The position numbers and the translations under genes are program-made. The notes below the pieces were generated by a model. It made no database searches. It saw nothing but the letters and a program-made list of their open reading frames with translations, and had not been told where the DNA came from. Source: Actinokineospora xionganensis (GTDB taxonomy: Bacteria; Actinomycetota; Actinomycetes; Mycobacteriales; Pseudonocardiaceae). From it: a DNA stretch of 64,000 nt. The stretch is taken from contig NZ_JABVED010000004.1 of NCBI RefSeq assembly GCF_014323725.1, positions 124,001 through 188,000 on the forward strand, in the 5' to 3' direction. The stretch's first letter is position 1, and each line of letters begins with the position of its first letter. Positions 1 through 64,000 of this stretch are shown piece by piece.

Positions 1-1989
<1,989 letters not shown>

Positions 1990-14872: not shown

Positions 14873-14993
14873 CGTGACTCGTCGGCTGTTAATCACCGGC
14901 CAGAAGCTGCCAACGGCGAACACATTGTCGGCTCCAGCCACGCGGGTGACGATCGTCTGTGCAGTGGTCCCCGACCCGAGGAGACGAGACGCC

Positions 14994-15200
14994 ATGGAGC
15001 AGATTCGCGTGCTGTTGGTCGGGGGACCCGCCGACCTCAGCGAGAACGATGTCCGCGAGATCCCGGCGCTGACCGAGACGGTCAAGGTCACCCGCGGCTG
15101 CGGCTACGAGCACTTCCGGTACGCGGGTCGGTCCAGCGAGCGGCACGGCACGCCGTTGCCGGTCTTCGAGTGGTGCCACCGAACCAAGATCGCGGAGTAG
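14994..15200 (+). CDS. DUF5988 family small protein
   Basis: A 68-aa protein with an N-terminal VLLVGGPAD strand/loop and a central GYEHF motif, the pattern of the DUF5988 family of short actinobacterial proteins that recur in natural-product clusters. Its function is unknown. Start at the ATG at 14994, with GGAG about 13 nt upstream. It is followed after 5 bp by the second condensation-domain gene, so the two are probably co-expressed. Family assignment is from recall of the motif, not a search. Confidence 0.75.
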   Translation: MEQIRVLLVGGPADLSENDVREIPALTETVKVTRGCGYEHFRYAGRSSERHGTPLPVFEWCHRTKIAE

Positions 15201-15205
15201 TCGGG

Positions 15206-16810: not shown

Positions 16811-16839
16811 CGCCCGAAGGGCGGGACCGCCCGGATCGA

Positions 16840-16865
16840 CGTCGAGCCTCCCCGAAGACTCGACG
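16840..16865. terminator. Possible bidirectional terminator
   Basis: Arms CGTCGAG and CTCGACG separated by 12 nt, preceded by a smaller CGCCC-GAA-GGGCG hairpin at 16811-16823. They sit between the convergent ends of the second condensation gene and the TrmB/LuxR regulator. No T-run. Confidence 0.45.
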
Positions 16866-16882
16866 CCCACGCCCGAGCGTCG

Positions 16883-47631: not shown

Positions 47632-48162
47632 CTACTCCTCGATCAGCCGGACGCCTGCGCGGTGTCGAGCGGCGAGGTCGCGGTAGGCCTGCGGGTTGAC
47701 GTTCACCCAGAACTCGGCGCCCGTGCCCGCGATCGGCCCCTTGACCTTCGCCGGGCTGCCGGTCACGAGCACCTCGTCAGGGATCTCGGCCCCGCCGACG
47801 ACCAGCGAGTGGGCCGCGACCAGCGTGCGGGCGCCGATCTTCGCGCCGTCGAGCACGGTGGCCCCGTTCGCGATCAACGCCTCCGCCCCGACAGTCGCGC
47901 CGTGCACCACACAGGCGTGCGCCACGGTCGCGCCTGCCCCGATGACACACGGCATCCCCGGCGGCGCGTGCAGGACCGCGCCGTCCTGGACGTTGGCGCC
48001 CGCCCGGATGATCACCTGCTCGAAGTCGCCGCGAATCACGGCGTTGTACCAGACCGAGGCGCCTTCCTCGACGATCACGTCGCCGACCAGGGTGGCCGTC
48101 GGGGCGATGAAGGCTGTGGGGTGGATGCTCGGGCTCTTGCCCTCGAATGAGAAAAGTGGCAT
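47632..48162 (-). CDS. Gamma-class carbonic anhydrase family protein
   Basis: 176-aa left-handed beta-helix protein built of hexapeptide repeats. The three metal histidines of the family are visible in VLHAPPG, VAHACV and VVHGA, with RGDFEQV near the active site. Expected to bind a metal and form a trimer; carbonic anhydrase activity is not assured in this family. Single gene. Confidence 0.9.
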   Translation of the reverse strand: MPLFSFEGKSPSIHPTAFIAPTATLVGDVIVEEGASVWYNAVIRGDFEQVIIRAGANVQDGAVLHAPPGMPCVIGAGATVAHACVVHGATVGAEALIANGATVLDGAKIGARTLVAAHSLVVGGAEIPDEVLVTGSPAKVKGPIAGTGAEFWVNVNPQAYRDLAARHRAGVRLIEE

Positions 48163-48438: not shown

Positions 48439-49281
48439 TCACGACTGCGTGGCCCACACGATCGTGTTCGACAGCTGGACGTCGTGGCTGGTCACGTCGA
48501 TGGTCACCTGGTCGCCGTCGGCGATCCGGAAGCCGTCCTGGAAGCTGCCGCGGTCCGCGCCGAGGAAGACGTAGTGGACGCGGCCTGGGTGGCGCAGCGC
48601 GGGGTAGGAGAGCAGGTGGTCGATCATGGTGTCCAAGTCGAACCGCAGCGCCGCGGTGCCGGTGGTGAACGAGCCCTTCCAGGCGGGCTGCCCGCCCCGC
48701 TCGATCGCGACCTCCCCGTTCACCGTCGCCGGGGGCGGGCCGCTGAACAGCCACGGCGAGACCGAGCAGTCGGTCAGCTTGGCGTATCCCAGGTGGCCGC
48801 GGTCGGCGACGAACTTGCCGATGTCGGTGAGGTCGTTGCCGAAGGTGAATCCGACGTAGCGGGTCTTGCCGTCCGTCCCGGTCAGGTAGACCAGCACGAC
48901 CTCCGCTTCCTCCCCCAACCCGAGCACGCTCGTGGGCACCGTCAGGGCGTCGCCGGGCAGCTTGACCACGTCGCCGAGGCCGCGGAAGAACCAGGTCGGC
49001 TGGTCCGGGGTCTCCACGCCCGCCTTGCCGTGGTGGGTCTGCGCGTAGCCGCTGACGAACAGGTCGCCCACCGAAGCGGGCCGCAGTGGCGGCAGCGGGC
49101 TCAGCTCCGCCGTCGGCACGGTCCTACCCGCACCCGCGGCGGCCCGAAGATCCCCCAACGAGTCCACAGTGGACAGCAGGTCCAGCACACCCCCGTCGAT
49201 CGGGTGCACGACCGCGGTGTCCGCGGGCGGGTCGAACCCGACGTGGCGCCCACCCTGGTACTCACATTCGAAGAACCTCAC
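48439..49281 (-). CDS. Fumarylacetoacetase (FAH)-family protein
   Basis: 280-aa protein with features of the FAH fold: SGYAQTHHGKAG, WFFRGLGDVVKLPGD and an acidic metal stretch GEEAEVVLVY, then YVGFTFGNDLTD. FAH enzymes hydrolyse or decarboxylate 2-keto-acid compounds using Mg2+. It is the last gene of the right cluster, 15 bp after the acyltransferase. Start GTG 49281 with GGAAGG. A role on a keto-acid intermediate or in its clearance is inferred. Confidence 0.75.
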   Translation of the reverse strand: MRFFECEYQGGRHVGFDPPADTAVVHPIDGGVLDLLSTVDSLGDLRAAAGAGRTVPTAELSPLPPLRPASVGDLFVSGYAQTHHGKAGVETPDQPTWFFRGLGDVVKLPGDALTVPTSVLGLGEEAEVVLVYLTGTDGKTRYVGFTFGNDLTDIGKFVADRGHLGYAKLTDCSVSPWLFSGPPPATVNGEVAIERGGQPAWKGSFTTGTAALRFDLDTMIDHLLSYPALRHPGRVHYVFLGADRGSFQDGFRIADGDQVTIDVTSHDVQLSNTIVWATQS

Positions 49282-49296
49282 AGCACTGCCTTCCCC

Positions 49297-50331
49297 TCAA
49301 CTGAGACTGATCGCCCAGGTCTTGGTGATCGTCGCGCCACGACGTTGTTTGACGTCGCTCGAATCCAGGCCGAGGTCGATGGTCCGACACGCGTTGGCGT
49401 AGCCGAAACCGATCGGCGCGTAGATCATCGCCTGGAGGTAGGCGAACTCCCGGCCCGCGACGTCGTCGGCCATGCCGATCTCGTACCCCTCGAGGATGTC
49501 GCCCTGCACCGTCAGGAAGGACACCGCCAGGAGCCTCCCGTCCGAGTCACGCACGACCGAGGCGTGGCAGTTCTCGGGGCCGAAGGCCGCGGCCCACTCC
49601 TTGAGCCGGTAGGCGACCAGGCGCGGGTGCTCGACGACACCGTACTTCTCCTTGACCGCGCAGATCATCGGCGCCGCCTCGGCGACCACGTCGCCCGCGG
49701 GCTCGAACCCGGCGGTGTAGCCGAGGGCGTCGAACTTGCGCCGGTCGCGGCGGAAGCGTTCGCGCTGCGACTTGGGCAGCGCGGCCACGTAGTCGTCCAC
49801 AGTGGAGCCGGTGAGGGCGAGGTGGGCGGTGTCGCTGAGTTCGCACGCCCGATGCCCGCCTGTCAGACCGGCGGTGAAGGCGGCCACCTCGGACGCGCGC
49901 ACATGCAGGGCCACCGGATAGTCGCCCGCCGCCTCGGCTTCGGTGAACACGTGGGCGGCCAGGGCGGACCTGACCTCCGCCGAGTCCTCATCGGACAGTC
50001 CGGCGCCGGTGACGACGCCCGCGGTGAAGTCGCGGCAGCCGCCGACGAACACCCAGCGGCGCGGGTCGGCCGGGGCCTCCCGGCCCAGCGAGTCGGACAT
50101 CGCGCCCAGGTCGTAGGCGTCGTTGATGAACCGTTCCGCGCGCGGCTGGTGGCTGCTGACGATCCCGACGGCCTGCCCGGCGGAGCGGGCCACCGTCCAC
50201 CGCGTCGCCCAGCGGGCGTCGGCGGCGGTGGTGCACAGCCTGCGCGGAGCCAGGCTGGCGGCGCTGTAGCGCCACTGTCCACTCAGGAGTTCCGCGGGCA
50301 CGTCGTCGACGGTGTCGATCGTCAGCTTCAT
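49297..50331 (-). CDS. FemAB/GNAT-like acyltransferase
   Basis: 344-aa protein. The C-terminal half has the FemAB/GNAT-like pattern (YVAALPKSQRERFRRDRRKF, VVRDSDGRLLAVSFLTVQG, GFGYANACRTIDLGLDSSDVK). The N-terminal half is related in layout. Such enzymes move an acyl or aminoacyl group to an amine. The ATG overlaps the dehydrogenase stop (ATGA). In this cluster it could be a fourth amide-forming or N-acylating enzyme. Donor unknown. Confidence 0.7.
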   Translation of the reverse strand: MKLTIDTVDDVPAELLSGQWRYSAASLAPRRLCTTAADARWATRWTVARSAGQAVGIVSSHQPRAERFINDAYDLGAMSDSLGREAPADPRRWVFVGGCRDFTAGVVTGAGLSDEDSAEVRSALAAHVFTEAEAAGDYPVALHVRASEVAAFTAGLTGGHRACELSDTAHLALTGSTVDDYVAALPKSQRERFRRDRRKFDALGYTAGFEPAGDVVAEAAPMICAVKEKYGVVEHPRLVAYRLKEWAAAFGPENCHASVVRDSDGRLLAVSFLTVQGDILEGYEIGMADDVAGREFAYLQAMIYAPIGFGYANACRTIDLGLDSSDVKQRRGATITKTWAISLS

Positions 50332-51314
50332 CGCTGCTTTCCCGCCGTCGCGTGGTGGCGGGCCTCGGGGTTGACGAGGTAGGGCGGGGTCTCGCCGCGC
50401 ACGACGCAGTCGACGTTCTCGATGGCGGCGGGAACCAGCGAGCGGTACATGTCCACGGTGTGGCCGATCACGTGGTCGGTCAACATGATGTTCGGCGCCT
50501 GCCGCAGCGGGCTCGCCGCGGGCAGCGGCTCGATGTCGAAGGTGTCGATCGCCGCCCCGCCGATATCCCCGCGCGCCAACGCCTCCGCCAACGCGTCCTC
50601 GTCGATGATGCCGCCGCGCGAGGTGTTGATCAGCATGGCCCCCGGGCGCATCCGGGCCAGTTCGGCCGCGCCGATGAGTCCCCGCGTGGCGGGGGTCAGC
50701 GGCAGGTGGACGCTCAGGATGTCCGACTCCTCGACGACCGTGTCGAACGAGCAGAACTCCACCCCTGGCCACTCCCGCGGAGTCCTGGTGTGACACAGGA
50801 TCCGGCCGACATCCCAGGCCGCGAGCCGCTTGCACACTTCCCGGGAGATGCGGCCGAAGCCGAGCAGCCCGATGGTGGCGCCGCGCAGCGGCCGCGAGTC
50901 GAGCTCGGCGGGACGCGGTCGCGGACGCAGCTCCGCGACCGCGGTCATTCGGTCGGACAGCCGGAAGGAGAGCGCGAGCGCGAGCATGATCGTCGCCTCC
51001 GCCATGCTGCCGTGGTTCTCCGGTGTCGCGCCGTTGGCGACCAGCACACCGCGCCTGCTCGCCTCGGCCACGTCGATGGAGTTGACGCCGCTGGAGACGA
51101 AGACCACGCCGCGCAGCTCCGGGTGGCGGTCCATGAACTCGACGGTGACCGGAGTGCGCGAGGTGACGACGAGAACGTGCAGGGCCCCGTCTTCCGCGGC
51201 CAGGTCGATGTCGCGGACGACATCATGGCCGCGGTCGGCGAGTCCCCGCGCGATCTCGTCGAACAACTCGTCGAGGACCCGGTCGGCCCCGACGTAAACC
51301 CGGTGCCCCGTCAT
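50328..51314 (-). CDS. D-2-hydroxyacid dehydrogenase (NAD-dependent)
   Basis: 328-aa dehydrogenase with NAD-binding GLLGFGRISREV, catalytic Arg region INTSRGGIID, Glu in FDIEPLP and His in LTDHVIGHT. It interconverts 2-keto and 2-hydroxy acids, probably on an intermediate made with LeuCD. It starts 45 bp after leuD. Confidence 0.92.
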   Translation of the reverse strand: MTGHRVYVGADRVLDELFDEIARGLADRGHDVVRDIDLAAEDGALHVLVVTSRTPVTVEFMDRHPELRGVVFVSSGVNSIDVAEASRRGVLVANGATPENHGSMAEATIMLALALSFRLSDRMTAVAELRPRPRPAELDSRPLRGATIGLLGFGRISREVCKRLAAWDVGRILCHTRTPREWPGVEFCSFDTVVEESDILSVHLPLTPATRGLIGAAELARMRPGAMLINTSRGGIIDEDALAEALARGDIGGAAIDTFDIEPLPAASPLRQAPNIMLTDHVIGHTVDMYRSLVPAAIENVDCVVRGETPPYLVNPEARHHATAGKQR

Positions 51315-51359
51315 GCCGCCTGCTTCCCGGCCGCGCTGACGGGGCCGATCGAGTGCCTC

Positions 51360-51983
51360 TCAGCCCGCATGGAACCCGTTGAGGTACGGCAGCCGAGCCG
51401 CCGTTCCCGCCACGTCGTCGGCCGACTTGAGCAGCTCGGTGAGCGTGTCCCAGGTGCCCGCGGCGAACGCGTCGCGCAGCGACTGGGAGATCTCCACGGG
51501 GAACTCGCGACCGCCGAAGACGAAGACGCCCTTCTCCAGGTCGACCTCGCCCACAGCGGCGGGGTCCGCCGCGCCGATCGCGCGGGCGGCCTTGGCGTCC
51601 TCGGCGGAGATCGTGAGACAGGGCAGGCCGATCGTGCCGCAGTTGCCGCGGAAGATCTCGCCGAAGCTCTCGCCGACGACGGCGCGCACGCCCCACCGGT
51701 AGAGCGCCTGCGCCGCGTGCTCACGCGACGAGCCGCAGCCGAAGTTCTTCGCCGTCAACAGGATCGAGGCGCCACGGCGGGCCTCCTCGTCGAACGGGTG
51801 GGTGACACCGCGGGCCCGGTCCTGCTTGCGGTCGTCCTCGAAGACGTGGTCGCCGAGGGCGTCGAAGGTCAGGTGCTTGAGGAACCGCGCCGGGATGATC
51901 CGGTCGGTGTCGATGTCGTTGCCCTCGATCACCACGGTCGATCCCGTGACGGCGGTGATGCGCGCGTCGAGATTGCTGGTCAC
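51360..51983 (-). CDS. leuD: 3-isopropylmalate dehydratase small subunit family protein
   Basis: 207-aa swivel subunit of the aconitase family: [16 protein letters not shown], the serine loop [12 protein letters not shown] and [10 protein letters not shown]. It pairs with the LeuC next to it to isomerise 2- to 3-substituted malates. GTG start overlaps the leuC stop (GTGA). Sits in a biosynthetic operon rather than with housekeeping leucine genes, so a specialised substrate is possible. Confidence 0.95.
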
Positions 51984-53428
51984 GCGAGAACTCCTTCGGA
52001 ATCGGGGGTGGTCACTGCCTGGCCGAACACGCTGGTCGGGTCGCACACGGACCCGTTGACGGCCGCCGCGGCGACCGCGAGCGGCGACAGGATCATCGTC
52101 CGGCCGGTCGGCGAGCCCTGGCGGCCCTTGAAGTTGCGGTTGGAGGACGACGCCGCGAGTTCCTGGCCGACGAGCTTGTCCGGGTTCATGGCCAGGCACA
52201 TCGAGCAGCCCGCGAGCCGGAACTCGAAGCCAGCCTTCTCCAGGACCTTGTCGATGCCCCGGCGGATCAGCTCCTCGCGCACGGCGTTGGAGCCAGGGAC
52301 GGCGAGCGCGCGGACACCGGGCGCGACGTGGGCGCCGCTGCGCTCGAGCGCGGTGGCGACCTCGACGAAGTCCGACACCCGGCCGTTGGTGCACGAGCCG
52401 ATGAAGGCGACGTCGATCGGGTACTCGCTGAGCGAGGTCCCCGGCTTCATGCCCATGTAGTCGTAGGCCTCGGCGAACGACGCGGCGGCCTCCGGCGAGG
52501 TCTCGTCGATCTGCGGCAGCAGGCCGTCGATCGGGACCGACTGCTCCAGGTTGATGCCCCAGGTGACCATCGGCCGGATGTCGGCGCCGCGCATCAGCAC
52601 GACGTCGTCGTACTCGGCGTCGGCGTCGGAGGCGACCCACTTCCACCAGGTCACGGCCCGGTCCCAGGCCTCGCCCGTGGGGACGGCGGGGCGGCCCTTG
52701 AGGAACTCGAAGGTCTTCTCGTCGGGGTTGACGTACCCGCAGCGGGCACCGCCCTCGACGGCCATGTTGCAGATCGTCATCCGCTCGTCCATGGACATGG
52801 CCTCGATGACCTCGCCCGCGAACTCGTAGGCGTAGCCCACACCGCCGACGACACCGAGTTCGTGGATGATGTGCAGGATCACGTCCTTGGCGGTGACGCC
52901 GGGGTTGAGCTCGCCGTCGATCTGGATGCGCCGCACCTTGAGCCGGTTCATCGTGACCGTCTGGGTGGCGAGGACGTCGCGCACCTGCGAGGTGCCGATG
53001 CCGAGCGCGACCGCGCCGAACGCGCCGTGGGTCGAGGTGTGCGAGTCACCACAGGCGATGGTCATGCCCGGCTGGGTGAGGCCCTGCTCGGGGCCCACTA
53101 CGTGGACGATGCCGTACTCGCCGCTGCCGGGTGAGAGGAAGCGCAGGCCGAAGTTGGTGGTGTTCTCCTCCAGCCTGGTCAGCATGTCCTCACCGAGCTG
53201 GTCCAGGAACGGACGCGCGATCGTGTCGGTGGGGATCACGTGGTCGGCCGTGGCGACGTTGCGCTCCGGCATGAGGACCGGCAGACCGCGTTCGCGCAGC
53301 ATCGCGAACGCCTGCGGGCTGGTGGCCTCGTGCACGAGGTGCAGACCGATGAACAGCTGGCACCGGCCGTCTCCGTAGGACCGCACGGTGTGCAGGTCGA
53401 ACACCTTGTCATACAACGTCGAGCCCAT
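51980..53428 (-). CDS. leuC: 3-isopropylmalate dehydratase large subunit family protein
   Basis: 482-aa aconitase-fold subunit with the [4Fe-4S] cysteines in IGSCTNG and AGCSMC, and [13 protein letters not shown]. Size and motifs are those of normal LeuC. It catalyses hydration-dehydration on isopropylmalate or an analogue. GGAG lies 9 nt before the ATG. No leuA, leuB or ndgR-like gene is adjacent, unlike typical leucine loci. It may be a cluster-specific copy or the only genomic copy. Confidence 0.95.
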
Positions 53429-53458
53429 GGGCTTCGTCTCCTTTGTCGTAGGCCTGTC

Positions 53459-54259
53459 TCAGGTGGCTGACCGGACGGGGGCCGCCGAGCCCGCCGTCAC
53501 TCCCCCGTCGACCGCCAGGGCTTGGCCGGTCACGTAGCTCGAGTGGGGGCTCGCCAGCCAGACCGCCGCGGCCGCCACCTCGGCGGGTTCGCCGACCCGG
53601 CCCAACGGCGCGCGCTTGGCGCGAGCGTCGAACTGGTCCGCGGACGGGTACAGCTCACGCAGCATGGGGGTGTCTGTGGACCCCGGACACACCGCGTTCA
53701 CTCGGATCCGGTGAGGAGCGAGTTGCAGCGCCGCCGCCTTCGTGAGGCCGACCACGCCGTGTTTGGTCGCGGCGTACATCGGGCTGCCCGAATGCCCGAT
53801 GAGGGAGGCGACCGAGCCCGTGGTCACGATGGCTCCGCCGCCCGCCGCGATCATCGCCCGTGCCTGGTGCTTGACGCACAGCCACATGCCGATGAGGTTG
53901 ACCGCCACGACGTCGGAGGCATCTTCCAGCCTGGACTCCGCGATGGGACCGATCGGGCCGAATGTACCAGCCGTGTTGACGGCGGCATCGAGCCCGCCGA
54001 ACCGCTCGACGGTCGCGTCCACGGCCGCCGCGACGCTGTCCTCGTCGGTGACGTCGCAGGTGAGGACCAGTGAGCGCGACTGATCGATACCGGCGAGTTC
54101 GAGTGATTCGCGCAACGGTTCCACCCGCCGCCCGGCGGCGACGACGATGGCGCCCGCGTCGGTGAACGCGGCCACCGCGGCGCGGCCGATGCCGCTGCCC
54201 GCGCCGGTGATCATGACGATCTTGTCTTCCAGGCCGGTGCCCCGGCTCACTTCGCCCAT
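53459..54259 (-). CDS. Short-chain dehydrogenase/reductase
   Basis: 266-aa SDR: GAGSGIG cofactor loop near residue 20, NTAG, Ser in TTGSVAS, and YAATK as the catalytic YxxxK. NAD(P)-dependent oxidation or reduction of an alcohol/ketone. Its ATG overlaps the first SDR stop (TGATG). GRR after the second strand favours NADP. Confidence 0.92.
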   Translation of the reverse strand: MGEVSRGTGLEDKIVMITGAGSGIGRAAVAAFTDAGAIVVAAGRRVEPLRESLELAGIDQSRSLVLTCDVTDEDSVAAAVDATVERFGGLDAAVNTAGTFGPIGPIAESRLEDASDVVAVNLIGMWLCVKHQARAMIAAGGGAIVTTGSVASLIGHSGSPMYAATKHGVVGLTKAAALQLAPHRIRVNAVCPGSTDTPMLRELYPSADQFDARAKRAPLGRVGEPAEVAAAAVWLASPHSSYVTGQALAVDGGVTAGSAAPVRSAT

Positions 54260-55005
54260 CAGATGTGCAGCCCCCCGTTGACGTCGAGCACGGATCCAGT
54301 GGTGTAGCCGGCGTCCTCGCCGCACAGGTGCACAACGGCGCCGACCGCCTCGGGCACCGTGCCGTAGCGCCCCATGGGCAGCCTGCCCAGCACGTCGGCA
54401 CGGCGCTCGGGCGCCATTTCCTCGCGCGCGGCCACCAGCCGCTGGGTGGCGATCGGGCCGTGCGCGACGGCGTTCACGGTCACCCCGCTGGCGGCCAGTT
54501 CGTGCGCGCACTGCTTGGTGTAGCCGATGACGGCGGCCTTGGCGGCGACGTAGGCGGCGTTGCTGAAGATCGAATAGGTGCGGCCCGCGATCGAGGCGAG
54601 GTTGACCACCCGGCCCCAGCCCCGCGTCCGCATCGCGGGCACGCACAGCCGGGTCAGGGTGAACGAGCCCAGGACGTTCGCGGTCATCGCGTCGAGCAGG
54701 TCGGACTCGCGCAGGTCCGCGACCGGGATGCGCCGGGTGTCGCCGCCGACGCAGTTGACCAGGATGTCGGGCATCCGCTCCGGCGGCAGGTCGGCGACCC
54801 GCGCCAGGACCTCGTCGGTCTCGGTGACGTCGAGATGCCACCGCTCGGCGCCGGGCACCGACTCGGCGATCTCGGCGAGCCGGTCGGCGTCGCGGTCGAT
54901 CACGACCACGTCGACACCGCGCTCGGCCAGGCAGCCCGCCACGCCCGCGCCGATGCCGGAGGCCCCGCCGGTGATCCACGCGCGACGTGTGATGGTGGCT
55001 GTCAC
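54259..55005 (-). CDS. Short-chain dehydrogenase/reductase
   Basis: 248-aa SDR with GGASGIG, VNCVGG in place of NNAG, Ser in NLASIAG and YVAAK. Asp in VIDRD after the second strand favours NAD. The unusual CVGGD loop may shift substrate choice. GTG overlaps the stop of the enolase-family gene (GTGA). Paired with the next SDR, possibly an oxidation/reduction couple on one intermediate. Confidence 0.92.
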   Translation of the reverse strand: MTATITRRAWITGGASGIGAGVAGCLAERGVDVVVIDRDADRLAEIAESVPGAERWHLDVTETDEVLARVADLPPERMPDILVNCVGGDTRRIPVADLRESDLLDAMTANVLGSFTLTRLCVPAMRTRGWGRVVNLASIAGRTYSIFSNAAYVAAKAAVIGYTKQCAHELAASGVTVNAVAHGPIATQRLVAAREEMAPERRADVLGRLPMGRYGTVPEAVGAVVHLCGEDAGYTTGSVLDVNGGLHI

Positions 55006-56174
55006 CGTGCTCCCTCCGCGATCCGGGACCCGTGCGGCACGCACGCGGCCAGCAGTTCCCCGGTTGGTTCGAGGCCGATCCCCGGCCCGGCGAGCGGCGG
55101 AGCCGACGACGTGTGCCGGTCGACGTGGTAGGCGGGCCGGGTCAGGCCGGGCTCGAACCACTCGTCCTGTCGACCCGCCTCGACCGCGACCGCCGACCGC
55201 AGCGACGTCGCGACCAGCCTGCCCGCGGCCCACAGCGGTCCGACCTCGCCCACCTGGACGCCGACCTGCACACCGAGCCGCGCGGCCGACGCGCGCCGTG
55301 CCAGGTCCAGCAGCCGCAGTGGGCCGCCGCACTTGGAGACGCGCAGGTTGAGCAGGTCGGCGGCCGCGTGGTCGACGGCTTCGGCGAGGTCGGCTTCGCC
55401 GGTGAACGACTCGTCGAGCATCACCGTGAGCCCTGCCCGCCGCAGCGCGGCCAAGTCGGTCCACCGACGCGGCGCGAGTGGCTCCTCCACCCACGACAGC
55501 CCGGCCGCCACCAGGTCGGCCGCGTGCGCCAGCACGTCGGCCAGTGCCCAGGCGCCGTTCGCGTCCACCGACACCGTCGTCGTCGCGGGCAGCAGGTCGC
55601 GCACGCGCGCGACCATCGCCGCGACAGCCGCGACCTCGGCGCCCGCCTTGAGCTTCACGTGCGGGATCAGCGCGCGGGTGTCCGCGCCCAGTGCCGCCAG
55701 GTGCGCCACCGGGTCGCGGCTGAGGTCGAGCACGGTGGACACCGGGACCGCGGCGGGCGCGGGGCCCAGCACGTCGCCGAAGCCTGCCCGGACCAGTGCC
55801 TCGAACCCGTCCACGCCGTGCGCGCGGCACAGCAGGTCGAGCAGCGCGGTCTCCAGCGCCGCCGCGGCGGCGGGCGCGGGCCCGCCCCGCGCGCCGAGCA
55901 CTTCCGGCAGCCGCAACCCGGTCAGGGCGGCCAGCGCGTCGTCGAGGGGCAGGCCGATGAGGTCCGCGGGCAGCGGGGCGTGCGCGAGGGCGGCCAGGAC
56001 CGACTCGACGGATTCCCCGGTGACGTACTCGCGTGGCGCGGCCTCACCCCAGCCGTCGGCGTCGGCGCCACGCAGCCGCAGCAGAACCGAGGACGAAGCG
56101 GTGCGCTTCTTGGTCGCGTGGCTGAAGGCGCGCCGCATCGGCACGCGCGCCTCGTACAGATCGATTCTCAGCAC
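55002..56174 (-). CDS. Enolase-superfamily enzyme (MenC / dipeptide epimerase-like)
   Basis: 390-aa enolase-superfamily protein. The barrel shows HVKLKAG (KxK, base lysine), SVDANGAW (Asp ligand), WVEEPL (Glu ligand), MLDES (Asp ligand) and NLRVSKCGG (second lysine). This lysine pair fits the muconate lactonising/MenC/epimerase subgroup: o-succinylbenzoate synthase, N-acylamino acid racemase or dipeptide epimerase. No other menaquinone gene is near, so racemisation of an amino acid or dipeptide is favoured. GTG start within the hydrolase end. Confidence 0.88.
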   Translation of the reverse strand: MLRIDLYEARVPMRRAFSHATKKRTASSSVLLRLRGADADGWGEAAPREYVTGESVESVLAALAHAPLPADLIGLPLDDALAALTGLRLPEVLGARGGPAPAAAAALETALLDLLCRAHGVDGFEALVRAGFGDVLGPAPAAVPVSTVLDLSRDPVAHLAALGADTRALIPHVKLKAGAEVAAVAAMVARVRDLLPATTTVSVDANGAWALADVLAHAADLVAAGLSWVEEPLAPRRWTDLAALRRAGLTVMLDESFTGEADLAEAVDHAAADLLNLRVSKCGGPLRLLDLARRASAARLGVQVGVQVGEVGPLWAAGRLVATSLRSAVAVEAGRQDEWFEPGLTRPAYHVDRHTSSAPPLAGPGIGLEPTGELLAACVPHGSRIAEGAR

Positions 56175-57025
56175 GCCGCGACCACCACCGTGAGGCCCGC
56201 CAGCCAGTCCCAGTACCCGGTCCTGGCCGGGGTGAATTCCAGAAAGTGCGACGTGGTGGGGAATTCCCGCAGCCGCGCGTGCGGCGCGAGGTCTTCGAGC
56301 ACGGCCAGCGAGGCGGCCTGGTCGATGATCGAGTCCGCGGCGGGAAGCGCGACGAACACGTCGCGGTCCGACCACGGTCCGGCGCCCCCGGTGACGTACA
56401 GGTCCTCGATTTCGACCATGACCGACCGGAAGCTGTCGGTGAGCGAGCGCACCATGAGGCCGTCGTTGGCCATGACGCGCAGGTACTCCGGCACGTCGGT
56501 GTACTGCTCGTCCTCGATCCGGACGACCGTGTACCCGCTTCCCTTGTGCAGCCGCCGGATATCGAGCGCGGCGGCGTCCATCCGGGCGCGCTGCTGGCCC
56601 AGCGCGGGCGCGCAGAGCACCACCGCGGCGGACTCCGGGACCCGGCCGGTGGCCACCAGCGCGGCGAGCACGCTGCCGCCGAAACTCTGGCCCACGACCG
56701 TGATCGGCGCGGTCGCGGTGTCGGCGAGGGCCGCCAGCGCGGCGGCGTAGTCGTCGAGCAGCGCGGCGGCGTCGTCGAGGTGGCCGCGCCGCCCGGGGCT
56801 GCGGCCGGAGCCGCGGCGGTCCAGGGCGGTCAGCCGCACGCCGCGGTCGAGCAGCGCGGGTCCGGTCTCGAACAGCCAGCCCGCGTGGCTCTGCAGCCCG
56901 TGGACATAGAACACATCGGACAGTTCCGCGGAAGTGTCCCCCCAAGTGTGCAGCGCCAGCGAATCGGCACCGCGGCTGAACGCGCGGCACGAATGGCCGC
57001 GCGACAGCACGTCCCCCTCACGCAC
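56168..57025 (-). CDS. Alpha/beta hydrolase
   Basis: 285-aa alpha/beta hydrolase with oxyanion region VHGLQSHAG, nucleophile elbow GQSFGG, and TTSHFLEF for the catalytic His. Could be an editing or release thioesterase for the neighbouring NRPS, or hydrolyse an ester intermediate. The GTG at 57025 overlaps the oxygenase stop by 8 bp; a GTG five codons later is also possible. Confidence 0.88.
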   Translation of the reverse strand: MREGDVLSRGHSCRAFSRGADSLALHTWGDTSAELSDVFYVHGLQSHAGWLFETGPALLDRGVRLTALDRRGSGRSPGRRGHLDDAAALLDDYAAALAALADTATAPITVVGQSFGGSVLAALVATGRVPESAAVVLCAPALGQQRARMDAAALDIRRLHKGSGYTVVRIEDEQYTDVPEYLRVMANDGLMVRSLTDSFRSVMVEIEDLYVTGGAGPWSDRDVFVALPAADSIIDQAASLAVLEDLAPHARLREFPTTSHFLEFTPARTGYWDWLAGLTVVVAAC

Positions 57026-58064
57026 CGGCGCCGTCCGATCCGCTTAACGCCGGGACGTCGCCGGATTCCCAGCGGGAGATCAGGGATTCGGCCACCAGCT
57101 GGGCGAACTCGCGCCTGCCGGGGACCATCTGGCCGGACTCGACGAACATGTCCCGGGCCCGGTCCCAGTCCGCGCGCCACCGCTGGGCGTCGGTGGTCGC
57201 GAGGTCGGGGTCCTTGACGCTCTTGGCCACCACCGACGGGAACCACGGCCGGTCCGACGGCTCGGCCGACGGGTGGTAGCGGAAGTCGAAGCTCCACCGC
57301 AGCCGGTCCGCGCGGTTGACCGTGGACCCGTGCGGGGTGCGCTTGTGGATCAGCACGAGGTCGCCGCGGTTGACCGGGAGCGGCACCGCGTTCGCCTCCA
57401 GGTCGGCGACCGTGTCCGCGTCCATCGGCCAGGGCAGCAGCTGTTCGCGTTCGTGCCTGCGCGGCACGACCAGCAGGCAGCCGTGCTCCTCGTCGACGTC
57501 CATCAGCGGGATCCAGCAGGTGACCAGGGTGGTGGCGTCGGACTGCGGGATCTGCGTCATCGCGTCCTGGTGCCACATGGTCGGCGCGTGCAGCGTCTCG
57601 CCGCGGCGGGCGCCGAACTTGCCCGGACCGCCGGGCGCGGGGAGCTTGAGCCGGACGTGCTGGTTCGGGCTGGCCGAGATCTCGTCGCCGACCAGGGTGG
57701 ACACCACGTCGAGCACGCGCGGGTGGCGCAGCAGCGCCAGGACAGCCGGTCCGGTGTGGACCTTGCTGTTCGGGCGGATCGACGTGAACGGCATGTGCGG
57801 CAGCGTGATGTCCAGCTCGCTCAGCAGCCCGGGGTCGAAGCCCGGCAACGCGGTGAGACCCACGAGGTGCTGGTCGAACGGCAGCTCGGCCAGGTCTTCG
57901 CCGCCGGTCAGCGCTCCCGCGGCGCGCCACTGCTGGGCGCGTGCGGCCAGCAGTTCGGCGTATTCGGCTCGGACGTCGGTGAAGTCCTCTTCGCGTAGGA
58001 CGTCGCGGACTACGGCGTAACCGTCGCGGTGGAAGTCTTGCGCGACGCTGTTCAACGTGGACAT
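57018..58064 (-). CDS. Phytanoyl-CoA dioxygenase-family Fe(II)/2-oxoglutarate oxygenase
   Basis: 348-aa oxygenase. Iron ligands are WHQDAM (HxD) and RTPHGS (distal His), with a likely 2-oxoglutarate Arg in DRLRWSFDF. Probably hydroxylates a building block or the peptide, as PhyH enzymes often do in natural-product clusters. ATG 58064 with GAAGG upstream; 19 bp after the GH3 gene. Confidence 0.9.
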   Translation of the reverse strand: MSTLNSVAQDFHRDGYAVVRDVLREEDFTDVRAEYAELLAARAQQWRAAGALTGGEDLAELPFDQHLVGLTALPGFDPGLLSELDITLPHMPFTSIRPNSKVHTGPAVLALLRHPRVLDVVSTLVGDEISASPNQHVRLKLPAPGGPGKFGARRGETLHAPTMWHQDAMTQIPQSDATTLVTCWIPLMDVDEEHGCLLVVPRRHEREQLLPWPMDADTVADLEANAVPLPVNRGDLVLIHKRTPHGSTVNRADRLRWSFDFRYHPSAEPSDRPWFPSVVAKSVKDPDLATTDAQRWRADWDRARDMFVESGQMVPGRREFAQLVAESLISRWESGDVPALSGSDGAGA

Positions 58065-58083
58065 TTCATCCTTCTCTGCGAGG

Positions 58084-59727
58084 TCATACCCGGTCGAGGC
58101 GCTCGAGGCCGTGGAGGAGGCTGTCATCGGGCTGCAACCACCGGTGTTTGAGCTGCGTCGCGGCGGCGCCCCCCGCCACCCGTTGTGCGACAAGCTTGCT
58201 GTAGGTGCCGGGTGGCACGACGTGCGGACGCAGCGGGGCTAATCGGCTGGACAGCCGCTTGTCGGCGTACTCGGTGTTCACCCGGCACAGCGCGGCGTCC
58301 ACGGTGGCGCAGAAGTCGTCGACGTCGGGGCCGGATCGCTGCTCCCACTCCAGCACCAGCACGTAGCCGGGCGGGCGGCCCCACACCGGGACCACGGAGA
58401 ACCGGCTGGCCACCGATGAGCGGCCGACCGCCGACCGGATCGCCGCGTGCACGTCGGACTCGGTGAGCTTCTCCCCGGTGAAGGAACTGACCGATCCCCC
58501 GCGGCCCTCGAATTCGAGGCGCGGGACGTGGCCGACCCGCCCGACCACCCGGTAGATGTCGCCGGTGTCGTAGCGGTAGAGCCCGTTCGCCTGGCTCATC
58601 ACCAGCCGGTAGGTCTCACCCCGTTCGAGGTCGCCCGGCTCGTGGGTCTCGACCTCGGCCGCCAGCGGCGCCCCGGCGTCGTCGACGGCGCACGGGACGA
58701 ACTCGAAGATCCCCTGGTCGACCGCGAGCGGACCGGCCGAGGCGTGGGAGTCGACCGGCAGGGTGACGATCCCCTCGGTTCCCGTGGTGCTGAACGGGAT
58801 GAGCGGCACTCCGGGAGCGAGCCGCTCCAGCCAGCCGCGGTAGTACCGCGCCGACGCGGAGTTCCACGCGACGAGCAGCGACAGCCCAGGCCAGAGGTCC
58901 AGCAGCGTGACCCGGCCGCTGAAGGCGTGCGCGGCCTCGAGCCGGGCCGCGGTCTCCGGGTCCGGCGTCAGCCTGCGGTCGGGCTCGCCCAGCAGCGTGC
59001 CGTCACGCAGGTCGCGCAGCACCTGGTCGAGTTCGGTGTTCAGCAGTTCGCCCAGCGCGGTGATCCGCGACGGGTTCACCGCGACGACCACTCGGACGTC
59101 GGCGCCCGCGAGCAGCCGCAGCCTGGTGTAGAGCGGATGGTCGCCGCAGTCGTCGCAGAACCACGGTTCCCCGTACCAGGGTGGCGTCCAGTCCCGCGGG
59201 CCGACCGAAGACGGCCGCTTGGTGATGCTGTAGATCGGCAGCACGTCGCCGAACGCCGCCGCGGACTTGCTGACCGCCCGCTCCCACGACATGTCGAGAA
59301 TGTTGCCGGGGGCGTAGGAGGTCAGTCCCAGCCTGCGGAAGTACAGGCCCCACTGGGCATACAGGGTCGGACCGCGGTAGACGTTGCGCCAGTGTCGGGT
59401 CGTGGGCACGAGTTTGGGCCTGCCGGTGGTGCCGGAGGTCATCAGCAGCGCGTACGGATCGCTGTCGGTGAGAACCTTCCGCTCTCCTACCCGAATTCGG
59501 TCCACATAGGATCGAAACGCCTCGTACCCGTTTACCGGAACGGCGGACTTGAACTCCGCGAGGGTGCGGACCCCGCCGAGGCCGTGGTCGCGCCCGAAGG
59601 CCGTGGGCCGGGCCTGCGCGAGCACGTCGGCGAGCACCGCCCGCTGCGCCTCTTCCGGCTCACGGCACCGCTGGAGCTGGTGGGCGTGGGCCTGCAGGGT
59701 GCGCTGGACGAATTCGTCGGCGGTCAC
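58084..59727 (-). CDS. GH3-family acyl-adenylate/amido synthetase
   Basis: 547-aa protein of the GH3 family (plant auxin/jasmonate-conjugating type). The ATP motif LMTSGTTGRPKLVPTT lies near residue 92, with the later motif YRYDTGDIYRVVG. GH3 enzymes adenylate a carboxylic acid and pass it to an amino acid amine. In this operon it may cap or extend the peptide. The GTG overlaps the NRPS stop (GTGA). Bacterial GH3 genes are found in some clusters but are unusual. Confidence 0.9.
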   Translation of the reverse strand: MTADEFVQRTLQAHAHQLQRCREPEEAQRAVLADVLAQARPTAFGRDHGLGGVRTLAEFKSAVPVNGYEAFRSYVDRIRVGERKVLTDSDPYALLMTSGTTGRPKLVPTTRHWRNVYRGPTLYAQWGLYFRRLGLTSYAPGNILDMSWERAVSKSAAAFGDVLPIYSITKRPSSVGPRDWTPPWYGEPWFCDDCGDHPLYTRLRLLAGADVRVVVAVNPSRITALGELLNTELDQVLRDLRDGTLLGEPDRRLTPDPETAARLEAAHAFSGRVTLLDLWPGLSLLVAWNSASARYYRGWLERLAPGVPLIPFSTTGTEGIVTLPVDSHASAGPLAVDQGIFEFVPCAVDDAGAPLAAEVETHEPGDLERGETYRLVMSQANGLYRYDTGDIYRVVGRVGHVPRLEFEGRGGSVSSFTGEKLTESDVHAAIRSAVGRSSVASRFSVVPVWGRPPGYVLVLEWEQRSGPDVDDFCATVDAALCRVNTEYADKRLSSRLAPLRPHVVPPGTYSKLVAQRVAGGAAATQLKHRWLQPDDSLLHGLERLDRV

Positions 59728-62700
59728 CGCGAGCCCTCGGGCTCCGGGACCGTGACCAGGTCGCGAAGCAGGTCGGCGAGGTCGCCCGCGCCCTCGGCCA
59801 GGTTCCCGACGAGATCGACCTGCGCGGAATCCGCGTCGGTCAGCGAATCCAGCACGACACAGGTCCCGAGGTAGGCCATCCAGGCCAACTGGACTTCGAT
59901 CGTCTCCTTGGCGACCCGCCCGAGGGTGTCGCCGAAGCGCTGCCGCATCGCCGACTCCAGCAGCGACCGCATGGTCGCGACCACGTCGACGGCGGCGGCG
60001 CACCTGCCCGCGAGATCGCCGACGCGCGGGATCCGCGGCGCCAGGGCGGAGAGGTCGGCCTCCGGGTGGAACCGCCGCGCGATGTCGGCGAACTCCTCGG
60101 CCCAGTCCGCTTCGGTCAAGGTGTTGCCGGAGACGCAGACCAGCACGACGTCCTCCGGCAGGGACTGCCGCAGATAGCGCGCCCACGCCGAGGCCGAGCA
60201 GTAGGCGAGCACGACCTTGGGGCCCTTCACCCGGGCGACGGCGTCGACGCCACGCCGCAGGCAGTCCTCGATCTCACCTGCCGCCACGCTCCTGGGCACC
60301 GGCAGCTCGACGGCGCGGGTGTCCGGAAAGGACTCCCGGATGAACGCGGCGAGCGCGGGTTCGGCGCGCGCGCCCGGGTAGTCGACGGTGAAAACGGTGA
60401 CGGCGTCGGCGCAGTCGCCCACGGCCCGCCGGACCGTCTCGGCCAGGTCGGCCACCGACGCGTCCGCCGCCTGGCGCAGGTGCTCGACACCGACGCGGAT
60501 GGCGGTCAGCAGCCGGTTCGCGTCCTTCTCGCCGACCACGGCGACGCTGTAGTCGAGGTCGAGCGCGAGGACCGTGCCCGTGTCGACGAGGTGGATGTTG
60601 CAGTGCCGCTTGATGGTCCCGGTGCCCAGCGGGTGGTTGCGCCAGGTCCCGTCCTGGATGGCCCGCGGCTCGATGGGCGCGTCGGCGGCCTGGAACAGGA
60701 TGTTCGCGTAGGGCGCGAGGGTCCGGGAGGCGTACGCCCCGATCTCGTCCAGCACGACCTCGATCGGCAGTTCCGAGCGGCCGAGGCTGGTCACGACGTC
60801 GTCGTGCACCCGGCGCACGTAGTCGGCCGCGGGCGCGGCGGATTCGCGGAAGTCGCCGACGAAGAAGATCTGGTTGGTGAACAGGCCCACGGTCTCCTGG
60901 TACACCGCGCGGTTGCGGTTGGCGACGCCGCTCATCACCACGACGTCGTCCTCGCCGGACATGACGTGCGCGCCGACCAGCAGGCCTGCCAGCATGAGGC
61001 TGTAGGTGGTAACGCCGAGTTCGCGGGCCGCGGCACGCACCGCGTCCGCCTCACCCGGGGCGTCCCAGCTGAGCCGGACGGACGCCGCGCGCTGACCGAC
61101 GGCGTCGCCCTCGCGCCTGGCGATCGAGAACTCCGGCGAGACCTTGGTGAACTTCTCCCGCCAGTACGCGATGTCGTCGGCGTACTGGCCCGCGCGGGTC
61201 CGCGCGGCGAGCGTGCCCGCGTAGTGGCTGAACGGCGTCGCGTCGGGCAGGTCGGTGTCTTGCCCCTCGTACAGGGCGAGGAAGTCGCGTCGGAGCAGGT
61301 CGGCCGACCAGCCGTCGGCGGCGATGTGATGGACGACGAAGTAGCTGATCCCCGTCCCGTCCGGCAGCGGCACGCAGCCGCCGCGGACCGGTGGCGCCAC
61401 GTCCAGGGCGAACGCCTGGCCGATGGCCGCGCGGATCAAAGCGTCGGCGTCGGCCGCGGTCGCGACCTCGTCATGGTGGACGAACTCGACGCGGCTCGGC
61501 CAGTCGGCCACCTGGTCGAGGAGCAGTTCCCCGGTCGGGGCGAGGACGTAGCGGTTGCGCAGCGACTCGTGCCGCCCGACCAGCGCCCGCAACGCCGTCT
61601 CCGCCCGCGCCGGGTCGAAGCGCGCGGTGCGGGCCATGGCCTCGCCGATGTTCAGGAAGGCCGCCGACCCCGCGCTCTGCGCGTGCCGCCAGTGCCTGCG
61701 CTGCGACGCGGTGGCCGGGACCAGGTCACCGTCGACATCGGACACGACGGTGGGCGACTGCGCGCCGCGGTCGGCGTACTCGTCGAGCAGTTCGCCCAGT
61801 GGGCGGGGGCTGAGGATCTCGTGGACCGGGACGACGACGCCGAGTTCCTGGTCGATGCGCATCAGTGCGGCGTAGGCCTCCAACGAAGTGCCGCCGTTCT
61901 GCGCCCACGAGCGGTCGGCGCGCACCGCGGCGCTGTCGGCCGTCTTGCGCCGCAGCACCGCCAGCAGCACGTCCTCCATCGCCACGCGCAGCGGCTTGCC
62001 CTCGGAGTCGGCCTCACCCTCGGCCGGTTTCCGGTCGCCCTGTCGCAGCATGCTCTCGATCGCCTTGAGGTCGGTCTTTCCGTTGGCGAGCCGGGGAAGG
62101 GACTCGACCCACACGACGGTTCGCGGGCGGGCGTAGTCCCGCAGACCGCTCACGTCGATCTGGTCGTCCCGGACATCGGGACCCATCGCCTCGACGACGG
62201 CGTGGACGGCGTCGTCGACGACCATCGCGCGGGCGTCGGCGACCCCGGGGTGCCCGCGCAGTTCGGTTTCCACCTCGGCGAGGTCGACCCGCTTTCCGCG
62301 CACCTTGACCTCGTGGTCGACGCGCCTGCCGAAGCGCAGCCCGTCTGGGCCCTCGGTGACGATGTCGCCGGTCCGGTACCAGTCGTCGGGGCCCGGCACG
62401 CCGTCGGCGAGGAGCCGGTGCCCGCCCGCTTCCTCGACGTAGAAGCGGGAGGCGTTGTGGCGGGGGTCGAGGTAGCCGGCGAAGACCTGCGGGCCGCGCA
62501 CGCACAGCTCCACCTCACCGGGCGCCGTCACGGGCTCGATCAACCGCCACTGCAGATGCGGCAGCACCCGGCCGATCGGCACCTCGACGCGGTCTACGGT
62601 CGCCCCGGGGGCCATGACGTGCTCGGTGATGGCGATGGTCGTCTCACTGGGACCATAGGAGTTGATGACCGTCGACGCGGGCGCGGCCTCCCGCCACAGC

Positions 62701-63476
62701 GAAAGGCACTGCGGCGTCAGCGATTCGCCGCCGAAGACGGCGGACCTGACCAGGCCGAGCGAACCCGGGGCCAGCTGCCGCAGCCGGTGCGCCATGACCA
62801 CCTGGGACGGCACGGAGTTCCACACGGTGATGTCCCAGCGGGTGCAGAAGCGCTGGATCAGCAGGTTCTCCCGACCCTCCGGGACGACCATGGCGGCGCG
62901 GCCCACGGCGGCCAGCACAAGCACCTCGTAGAAGGCGTCGAACTGGGGCCGGTAGTTCTGGCTGATCCGGTCTCCGGGGCCGACCCTGGCCTGGGCGCGC
63001 AGATAGTCCGCGTAGCTCCGCAGGTTCCGGTCGCTGATCGCGACGTCCTTGGGCGCGTTCGTCGACCCGGAGGTCGACAGCACGTAGCACTCCGACTCGG
63101 GCGCGCGCACCGCCTCGGCCGCGGTGTGCCGGGACAGCTCGACCGTGCCGTGCTCGGCGCCGCCGATCCGGGCCCACACCCCGAGTCGGTCCAGCCGCGC
63201 CAGTTCCCCGCTGGAACCGCCGGACTCGAACGGGACGAGGGCGCAGTCGAGGGCGGAGACCGCCAGCAGCGCCGGGTAGAGGTCGAGGCCGAGCGTGTCG
63301 GCCGTGACCGCGATCCGCAGGCCGGGGTGCGCGCCCGCACCGCCCAACTGGGCCTTGATCTGGTCGGCGCGGTCGAGCAGGTGAGCGTAGGTCAGCTTGC
63401 CGAGGCCGCCGTCGATCGCCAGGGCCTCGCCGTCGGCGTCGGCCGTCGCGGCGAAAAGGTCGTGCAGGAATCCCAT
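59724..63476 (-). CDS. Nonribosomal peptide synthetase, A-PCP-C with an unassigned C-terminal domain
   Basis: 1250-aa synthetase. An adenylation domain (residues 1-500; STSGSTNAPKD, NSYGPSETT, ANGKTDLK) is followed by a PCP (Ser531 in GGTSLEA), a condensation domain with intact HHIAADG (near 715), and about 240 residues that are not a standard NRPS domain. There LAYCSAS near 1092 recalls a thioesterase elbow without the GxSxG glycines. The order A-PCP-C differs from the usual C-A-PCP and implies that the loaded amino acid is passed to a free or separately tethered partner. It starts 1 nt after the ATP-grasp gene. Substrate not read. Confidence 0.93.
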   Translation of the reverse strand: MGFLHDLFAATADADGEALAIDGGLGKLTYAHLLDRADQIKAQLGGAGAHPGLRIAVTADTLGLDLYPALLAVSALDCALVPFESGGSSGELARLDRLGVWARIGGAEHGTVELSRHTAAEAVRAPESECYVLSTSGSTNAPKDVAISDRNLRSYADYLRAQARVGPGDRISQNYRPQFDAFYEVLVLAAVGRAAMVVPEGRENLLIQRFCTRWDITVWNSVPSQVVMAHRLRQLAPGSLGLVRSAVFGGESLTPQCLSLWREAAPASTVINSYGPSETTIAITEHVMAPGATVDRVEVPIGRVLPHLQWRLIEPVTAPGEVELCVRGPQVFAGYLDPRHNASRFYVEEAGGHRLLADGVPGPDDWYRTGDIVTEGPDGLRFGRRVDHEVKVRGKRVDLAEVETELRGHPGVADARAMVVDDAVHAVVEAMGPDVRDDQIDVSGLRDYARPRTVVWVESLPRLANGKTDLKAIESMLRQGDRKPAEGEADSEGKPLRVAMEDVLLAVLRRKTADSAAVRADRSWAQNGGTSLEAYAALMRIDQELGVVVPVHEILSPRPLGELLDEYADRGAQSPTVVSDVDGDLVPATASQRRHWRHAQSAGSAAFLNIGEAMARTARFDPARAETALRALVGRHESLRNRYVLAPTGELLLDQVADWPSRVEFVHHDEVATAADADALIRAAIGQAFALDVAPPVRGGCVPLPDGTGISYFVVHHIAADGWSADLLRRDFLALYEGQDTDLPDATPFSHYAGTLAARTRAGQYADDIAYWREKFTKVSPEFSIARREGDAVGQRAASVRLSWDAPGEADAVRAAARELGVTTYSLMLAGLLVGAHVMSGEDDVVVMSGVANRNRAVYQETVGLFTNQIFFVGDFRESAAPAADYVRRVHDDVVTSLGRSELPIEVVLDEIGAYASRTLAPYANILFQAADAPIEPRAIQDGTWRNHPLGTGTIKRHCNIHLVDTGTVLALDLDYSVAVVGEKDANRLLTAIRVGVEHLRQAADASVADLAETVRRAVGDCADAVTVFTVDYPGARAEPALAAFIRESFPDTRAVELPVPRSVAAGEIEDCLRRGVDAVARVKGPKVVLAYCSASAWARYLRQSLPEDVVLVCVSGNTLTEADWAEEFADIARRFHPEADLSALAPRIPRVGDLAGRCAAAVDVVATMRSLLESAMRQRFGDTLGRVAKETIEVQLAWMAYLGTCVVLDSLTDADSAQVDLVGNLAEGAGDLADLLRDLVTVPEPEGSR

Positions 63477-63477
63477 G

Positions 63478-64000
63478 TCACACGCCCTCCGCCCGCTGCG
63501 CGAATGCGTGTCCGCCCGCGTGGTCCCGCGCGCCGAGCCGAGTGATCATGGTTTCCGTCCAGTCGTGGTGGCCGATCGCGTCCTCGGCGAACAGCTCGCG
63601 CAGTCGCACGAGGAACCCGGCGGCGGTCTGCCGCAGGTCCTCGGCCGTCGCGCGGTCGAGAACGACGTTGCACGCCAGCGCGTCGGTGTCCGACCGCGCG
63701 GCGCCTTGCCTGGCTATCTCGTCGACCGCCGCCGCGCCCGCGTCCTTCAACGCGGCCGCGGTGACGTTCGAGCGCACAGTGCCGTCCTCAGTCGGGAACG
63801 GCACGAACATGCCCGCCACCGCGCGCTCGCCGTCGTCGGCGGGGAGGTCCTGGGGCGGCAGGCCCGCGGTGATCAGCAGCGCCTGGCGCACCAGGTCGAA
63901 ACCTGACCGCAGCTTGGTCAGCCGGTTCAGGTGGCCGCCGACCCGACAGTTGATCTCGATGATCTCCGGCCCGGCGGCGCCCAGCTTGACCTCGGTGTGC
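63478..64000 (-). CDS. ATP-grasp ligase, C-terminal part (5' end outside the window)
   Basis: The last 174 codons of an ATP-grasp protein. HTEVKLGAAGPEIIEINCRVGG contains the metal-binding Glu and Asn of the ATP-grasp fold, as in L-amino acid ligases that form dipeptides. The C-terminal lid follows. First visible gene of the right operon. Dipeptide formation is inferred; other acid-amine ligations are possible. Confidence 0.88.
   Translation of the reverse strand, partial: HTEVKLGAAGPEIIEINCRVGGHLNRLTKLRSGFDLVRQALLITAGLPPQDLPADDGERAVAGMFVPFPTEDGTVRSNVTAAALKDAGAAAVDEIARQGAARSDTDALACNVVLDRATAEDLRQTAAGFLVRLRELFAEDAIGHHDWTETMITRLGARDHAGGHAFAQRAEGV

Follow-up and report, generated by a model that had tools for sequence, protein, structure and literature searches.

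A recurrent GH3, alpha/beta-hydrolase and enolase-superfamily gene unit at the core of a probable biosynthetic cluster with its own LeuCD pair in Actinokineospora xionganensis

What might a bacterium make with a leucine-pathway-type isomerase pair encoded among several possible amide-forming enzymes? The question is raised by a 64,000-nucleotide stretch of the Actinokineospora xionganensis genome (positions 124001-188000 of contig NZ_JABVED010000004.1, our C34, in a 6.81 Mb assembly of 70 contigs), referred to here as the window. Using a codon-based gene finder trained on the window itself, we called a run of 13 genes, all on the minus strand and all with open frames and good codon scores, from an ATP-grasp ligase gene (63478-64800) to an FAH-fold gene (48439-49281). 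Adjacent genes overlap by 1-44 bp or are separated by 1-45 bp, while the flanking genes, for a hexapeptide-repeat protein (47632-48162) and a major facilitator superfamily (MFS) protein (65143-66312), lie 276 bp and 342 bp away, so that a single operon is likely. A preliminary description of this DNA had likewise read one leftward, mostly overlapping operon, and all the genes it named are present: ATP-grasp, nonribosomal peptide synthetase (NRPS), GH3, FemAB/GNAT-like, LeuC and LeuD, D-2-hydroxyacid dehydrogenase, short-chain dehydrogenases (SDRs), PhyH, enolase and FAH. Its list was incomplete, lacking an alpha/beta-hydrolase gene, the MFS gene and a C-terminal extension of the NRPS, and it had not recognized that the GH3, hydrolase and enolase-like genes belong together. 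We find that these three genes form a recurrent unit, the trio, which is the core of what is probably an uncharacterised biosynthetic cluster for a small peptide-like metabolite.

The first member of the trio (58084-59727, minus strand) encodes a 547-residue GH3-family protein with a Pfam match of 4.5e-47, whose N-terminal, middle and C-terminal parts all score over the cut-off. Among solved structures it is closest to plant auxin- and jasmonate-amido synthetases, which make acyl-amino-acid amides, and by its domains the protein is an acyl-amide synthetase predicted to catalyze a reaction of this kind. The second member (56168-57025, minus strand) is a 285-residue alpha/beta-hydrolase of the Pfam family Hydrolase_4 with a putative S118/D231/H260 triad, present in 27/27 sequences; its sole solved-structure match at 1e-05 is a monoglyceride lipase. 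The third (55002-56174, minus strand) is a 390-residue enolase-superfamily enzyme with a MR_MLE_C match of 1.1e-28 and a MR_MLE_N match under its cut-off. The nearest solved structure is 2p88, an N-succinyl Arg/Lys racemase, both by sequence (3.7e-18) and by fold (4.1e-24, from a model with a confidence, pLDDT, of 89.9); dipeptide epimerases, N-acylamino acid racemases and muconate lactonizing enzymes come next. Residues K174, K176, D204, E230, E231, D254 and K281 are kept in 27/27 distinct actinobacterial enolase-like sequences. The roles of those other than the two lysines are the ones we presume for this superfamily. With a capped barrel in the model, a KxK motif, three predicted acidic metal ligands and a further lysine, the protein is assigned to the muconate-lactonizing subgroup, whose two-lysine mechanism is described in the accessible part of PMC5808125.

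We searched 394 genomes of the family of genome G412, taken as Streptomycetaceae, with an enolase profile (E 1e-50) and obtained 22 places in 21 genomes, counts that may be low because this search, like the phylum-wide and LeuD searches below, scores only 4 to 8 first-look candidates in each genome. Nine strong places were read over 16-20 kb and 13 weaker ones over approximately 4 kb; five of the latter were reread over 19.5-20 kb, and the other eight show only a C-terminal piece of GH3. The order GH3-hydrolase-enolase on one strand is found in 20 of the 22 places. Wherever the hydrolase-enolase junction was measured, at 15 loci, the two genes as called share 4-11 bp. The trio also occurs in contigs of Burkholderia cenocepacia (L016) and Zooshikella harenae (L017), where genes were read by tblastn and open reading frame lists. 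Across 18 loci including these two, the distances between the trio proteins correlate (GH3/hydrolase r 0.977, hydrolase/enolase 0.846, GH3/enolase 0.832), and none of 2000 permutations reaches any of the three values. The linkage and co-inheritance of the three genes are thus directly observed. Of 396 genomes sampled across the phylum, a single one, that studied here, yielded the enolase-like gene (E 1e-50), and a GH3 search of a plasmid collection returned nine records, the best being 51.3% identical in Streptomyces sp. SGAir0924.

The trio keeps varied company. A GH3 protein scan of named genomes gave 13 loci (L007-L019), among which the trio stands with other partners in five Streptomyces or Kutzneria loci (L008, L010, L011, L012, L015) and in a Streptomycetaceae metagenome-assembled genome (L018); in L007 the contig ends just behind GH3, which leaves the GH3 neighbours out of view. 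Examples of such partners are a methyltransferase, a D-2-hydroxyacid dehydrogenase and an FAA hydrolase in L008, and an ATP-grasp protein, an SDR2 relative, YCII, an aminotransferase, TauD and an FAA hydrolase in L010. The B. cenocepacia (5803-17675) and Z. harenae (848-11121) loci hold the trio together with MFS, SDR, thiamine pyrophosphate (TPP) enzyme and FAH-fold genes in one direction. By tblastn, an FAH-superfamily gene was found in 16 of 20 trio-related loci, or 15 of 19 distinct other loci given that L018 and L055 are one contig, and none was found in L019, L057, L058 or L059; the count mixes two kinds of FAH protein, and the FAH gene of L011 is on the opposite strand.

The second striking component is the LeuCD pair. 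The LeuC-type large subunit (51980-53428, minus strand, 482 residues; Aconitase 1.7e-155) scores over the PRK05478 and PRK12466 cut-offs and under that of leuC TIGR00170 (541 versus 560), and the LeuD-type small subunit (51360-51983, minus strand, 207 residues; Aconitase_C) is just over PRK01641 (167.9 versus 167) and under leuD TIGR00171 (91 versus 116). The genome holds three aconitase-family genes: a LeuC on contig C70, one gene on C15 and the cluster LeuC, the second LeuC copy. The C70 LeuC is 51% identical to the cluster protein, and the LeuD beside it 37% identical to the cluster LeuD. Each of 20 other relatives has a single LeuC (E 1e-80), 48-52% identical to the cluster LeuC; two were found only in the genome studied here. 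The PhyH gene of the cluster was detected in 2 of 390 genomes of its own family, its own included (E 1e-60). Given the additional LeuC and the absence of the gene set from relatives, we reject a role in primary metabolism, and the conserved primary-metabolism context that would have spoken against the preliminary description was not encountered.

A LeuD profile (A3, E 1e-55) run against 389 genomes of the G412 family and 386 of the own family found cluster-type LeuD in four of these 775 genomes, namely G895 and G844 in the former, and our own genome and G043, taken as Actinophytocola xanthii, in the latter. In all four, the trio lies within approximately 6 kb, and the order SDR1, LeuC, LeuD, D-2-hydroxyacid dehydrogenase is common to all. 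Here SDR1 (53459-54259, 266 residues) and the dehydrogenase (50328-51314, 328 residues, 2-Hacid_dh) are both on the minus strand; the dehydrogenase is present in one copy here and in the Actinophytocola locus L019 and in two copies in G895 and G844. The D-2-hydroxyacid dehydrogenase gene follows LeuD in 4/4 genomes, which makes it plausible, and in our view likely, that LeuCD acts on a hydroxy or keto acid. The preliminary description is partly borne out: the LeuCD pair stands in a specialised cluster with several possible amide-forming enzymes, and the keto- or hydroxy-acid route through LeuCD that it suggested is plausible; the coupling of the acid to amino acids, also part of that suggestion, would be a further step, by whichever of these enzymes. 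G895 and G844 additionally carry a type II dehydroquinase and a FAD_binding_2-type gene, neither of which was seen in our cluster. The dehydroquinase gene lies inside the G844 cluster (L096 10549-11025) and beside that of G895 on the other strand (L064 15400-15843), hinting at a shikimate-type acid in those two clusters.

A LeuD loop reads TFDALG in our protein, L019 and L056 and SFDALG in G844, and (T/S)(R/K)(T/S)GF in 20/20 housekeeping LeuDs. As a sign of a new substrate this is weakened because plasmid-borne LeuDs of Cupriavidus necator and Haloarcula carry comparable loops (TFDGLE, TFEGLG); cyanobacterial LeuDs presumably do as well. The best two plasmid LeuDs listed, from 359 records, are those of Haloarcula marina (46%) and C. 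necator pBB2 (43%), and their neighbours, in settings that look catabolic, are either FAH-fold and SDR genes or genes for citryl-CoA lyase and a CoA-transferase. The latter is the setting of the LeuCD pair in pBB2 (L090 4561-8603), where the isomerase probably serves catabolism.

An extra copy of a housekeeping enzyme could also be a resistant version of the target of the product. Reading past position 64000, as the preliminary description had proposed, we found that the ATP-grasp gene runs to 64800 and that the minus-strand MFS gene is followed by divergent trpB, trpA and GntR genes (window-equivalent 66554-69295; L002:554-3295). Two further trpB copies in the genome also score over the cut-off, so that a second extra copy stands near the second LeuC, in keeping with self-resistance. 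Yet LeuC and LeuD lie between SDR1 and the D-2-hydroxyacid dehydrogenase in 4/4 genomes, the cluster LeuD is just 37% identical to the housekeeping LeuD, and a look through 56.6 kb surrounding the Actinophytocola cluster (L019, L026, L027, partly overlapping) turned up neither trpB nor trpA, which also leaves TrpBA unsupported as cluster members. We therefore regard a LeuCD pair that serves resistance and not biosynthesis as very improbable.

From these linkages we infer the reactions, their direction, the substrates and the product as follows. LeuCD would convert a 2-substituted malate to a 3-substituted malate, and the D-2-hydroxyacid dehydrogenase would oxidise the (2R)-hydroxyl; the SDRs, the FAH-fold protein and the PhyH oxygenase may adjust the acid. 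GH3 would adenylate a carboxylic acid and join an amino acid to it, whereupon the enolase-like enzyme would bind the carboxylate of the N-acyl amino acid on Mg2+, its two lysines removing and returning the alpha-proton so that the stereocentre is inverted, and the hydrolase would cut the amide and free the inverted building block. Final amides would be built by the A-PCP-C protein (adenylation, peptidyl carrier protein and condensation domains), the ATP-grasp ligase and the FemAB/GNAT-like protein, and the MFS protein would export the product. We give this scheme, in which the trio acylates, inverts and releases while LeuCD and the dehydrogenase supply an acid, a probability of about 40%.

Several observations weigh against it. 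Identity to the enolase-like protein is only 16-25% among the 50 top structure matches listed, all 12 NCBIfam matches of this protein fall under their cut-offs, and its fold also performs cycloisomerisation and dehydration. In 2 of the 22 places (L058, L059) the hydrolase-enolase pair has no adjoining GH3, the gene preceding the hydrolase in L059 being a TPP enzyme; conversely, the 51% identical GH3 of three named loci (L009, L013, L014) comes with neither hydrolase nor enolase. PhyH separates GH3 from the hydrolase both here and in Actinophytocola, and the 13 genes include no LeuA-like condensing enzyme and no aminotransferase. On the Streptomyces netropsis contig (L059, L013), the hydrolase, enolase, SDR2 and SDR1 genes adjoin a TPP enzyme and polyketide synthase (PKS)-like genes, and in S. 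netropsis and S. griseocarneus a GH3 that may or may not belong to the hydrolase-enolase pair lies approximately 43 kb away from it, provided that the contig is numbered alike in both records.

The versatility of the fold leads to a different scheme, in which the enolase-like enzyme dehydrates or cyclises a keto or hydroxy acid in the manner of o-succinylbenzoate synthase or muconate lactonizing enzymes, the hydrolase acts by ring opening or elimination, and GH3 conjugates the finished acid into the product. The NCBIfam menC and mucon_cyclo matches of enolase-like proteins agree with it, as do the YCII/muconolactone-isomerase-like, CHMI-like, FAH-superfamily and TPP enzymes at some other trio loci, which are typical of keto-acid chemistry. 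The best sequence and structure matches of the enolase-like protein are nevertheless racemases and epimerases, and five TPP enzymes that we scanned beside other trio genes do not have MenD among their 25 best families listed, the top match being PRK08327 (four) or acetolactate synthase (one). There is no TPP gene among the 13, and a menaquinone-like MenD/MenH/MenC/MenE branch is not supported. We hold the wider scheme to be possible though doubtful. Alternatively, GH3 may add and the hydrolase remove an amino acid as a temporary tag, with the enolase-like enzyme acting on the acid part. This would suit the GH3/hydrolase correlation, the tightest of the three, and the conserved putative triad, but nothing we have points to amide removal and at 1e-05 the hydrolase matches just one solved structure, a lipase, which makes such tagging unlikely.

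The remaining genes are all on the minus strand as well. For the four possible amide-forming enzymes of the preliminary description, GH3 and the A and C domains are assigned by Pfam; the other two are more tentative. Only the 3' part of the ATP-grasp gene is in the window (63478-64000); its 440-residue product has a best Pfam match of 7.7e-04, with every Pfam match under the cut-off, and lies nearest, among solved structures, to the ligases BacD (1.5e-09) and BL00235. The 344-residue FemAB/GNAT-like protein (49297-50331) matches Acetyltransf_6 over the cut-off (7.1e-06) and FemAB_like under it (8.9e-04), and has a 63% identical relative in the Actinophytocola cluster. The 369-residue PhyH-type oxygenase (57018-58127; Pfam 1.3e-22) is nearest to the structures of SnoN and SnoK. 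SDR2 (54259-55005, 248 residues) and SDR1 are supported by Pfam and NCBIfam, SDR1 with a BacC match under the NCBIfam cut-off, and the 280-residue FAH-fold protein (AraD1/GguC-like), which has no Pfam match, matches NCBIfam GguC/AraD1 at 5.4e-38 (130.8 bits against a cut-off of 340).

In the 1250-residue NRPS (59724-63476), Pfam detects no PCP, and this part of the A-PCP-C reading comes from residues 524-564, which can be aligned (39%, 5e-06) to a PCP that Pfam does recognise in the Actinophytocola cluster. Residues 1010-1250, approximately, form an extension of about 240 residues that had gone unnoticed. An AlphaFold model of it with a pLDDT of 74.4, modest in quality (the other four models reached 50-58), gave three Foldseek matches with E <0.001, all to NcmC (2e-05 to 3e-04, template modelling score 0.40-0.49), and its elbow AYCSA places a conserved Cys81 at the nucleophile position. 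NcmC-type Dieckmann cyclases have a hydrolase-like fold with a Cys-Asp-His triad. We do not name the extension a Dieckmann cyclase because no histidine is common to the two sequences of this extension that were compared, and a sequence search up to E 10 found no NcmC match. Nor do we claim a substrate for the A domain, as its specificity positions were read by eye and one is ambiguous. To the left of the window, the same contig (L067 1434-19990) encodes proteins of 3050, 1546 and 1585 residues that are 37-50% identical to a PKS reference.

The closest relative of the whole set is the A. xanthii cluster (L019, NZ_MSIE01000007.1), for which we found no description. It shares GH3 (71% identical), PhyH, hydrolase, enolase, SDR2, SDR1, LeuC, LeuD, D-2-hydroxyacid dehydrogenase, ATP-grasp, PCP-C with the same C-terminal extension, FemAB/GNAT-like and MFS proteins at 60-87% identity. 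It differs in having its A domain on a separate protein, only 35% identical, and additional PCP and PCP-methyltransferase proteins, and no FAH relative was found. Close to the end of its LeuC (L019 16249-18351) the reading frame changes and continues into LeuD, through a sequencing error or in reality; the single 700-residue frame is not a true LeuC-LeuD fusion because the LeuC end aligns in another frame.

Among described systems, the N-succinylamino acid racemase pathway and the dipeptide epimerases share the fold and lysine pair of the enolase-like enzyme, and the former the proposed logic of acylation, racemisation and deacylation. In that pathway acylation is performed by a succinyl-CoA transferase, whereas here the GH3 ligase would acylate, the hydrolase is of another family and the setting is biosynthetic. 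The bacilysin cluster resembles ours in its BacD-like ATP-grasp ligase, the sub-cut-off BacC match of SDR1 and an MFS protein. Bacilysin uses BacA and BacB and no NRPS; family searches of our cluster proteins turned up no BacA or BacB relative. The acid of cystargolide and belactosin derives from 3-isopropylmalate. Their amides are made by a stand-alone adenylating ligase and an ATP-grasp ligase, a likeness to our cluster, while GH3, enolase and LeuC/D go unmentioned in the accessible part of that account (PMC11427300). According to the accessible part of PMC11408123 an O-methyltransferase marks belactosin/cystargolide-type clusters, and our 13 genes, with no methyltransferase family match, were not assigned to this type. 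The only GH3 gene that we met in a described cluster, within the accessible parts of the open-access literature, is RubP3 of the rubiginone cluster. It lies in a nine-gene segment with the alpha/beta-hydrolase RubO, regarded by the authors as an insertion without an assigned role, and the portion of the gene table shown contains no enolase (PMC8487521, accessible part). Each enzyme family is known on its own; in agreement with the preliminary description, neither this set nor the trio turned up in any cluster described in that literature, with subscription papers, supplements and MIBiG outside its scope.

With more doubt than confidence, we extend the proposal to the trio as a portable, undescribed stereo-inversion cassette of Actinobacteria and Proteobacteria, in which an amide would be formed purposely to let an enolase-type racemase invert an amino acid outside the assembly line, and would afterwards be cleaved; in the four cases known, the cassette would be coupled to a recruited LeuCD providing a branched hydroxy or keto acid. 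If this is true, the trio would be a compact, non-NRPS route to the D-configuration in small metabolites, and a leucine-pathway-type isomerase pair would have been recruited along with a D-2-hydroxyacid dehydrogenase. The GH3-hydrolase-enolase order would then also provide a search handle for uncharacterised clusters in Streptomyces, Kutzneria, Actinophytocola and Proteobacteria.

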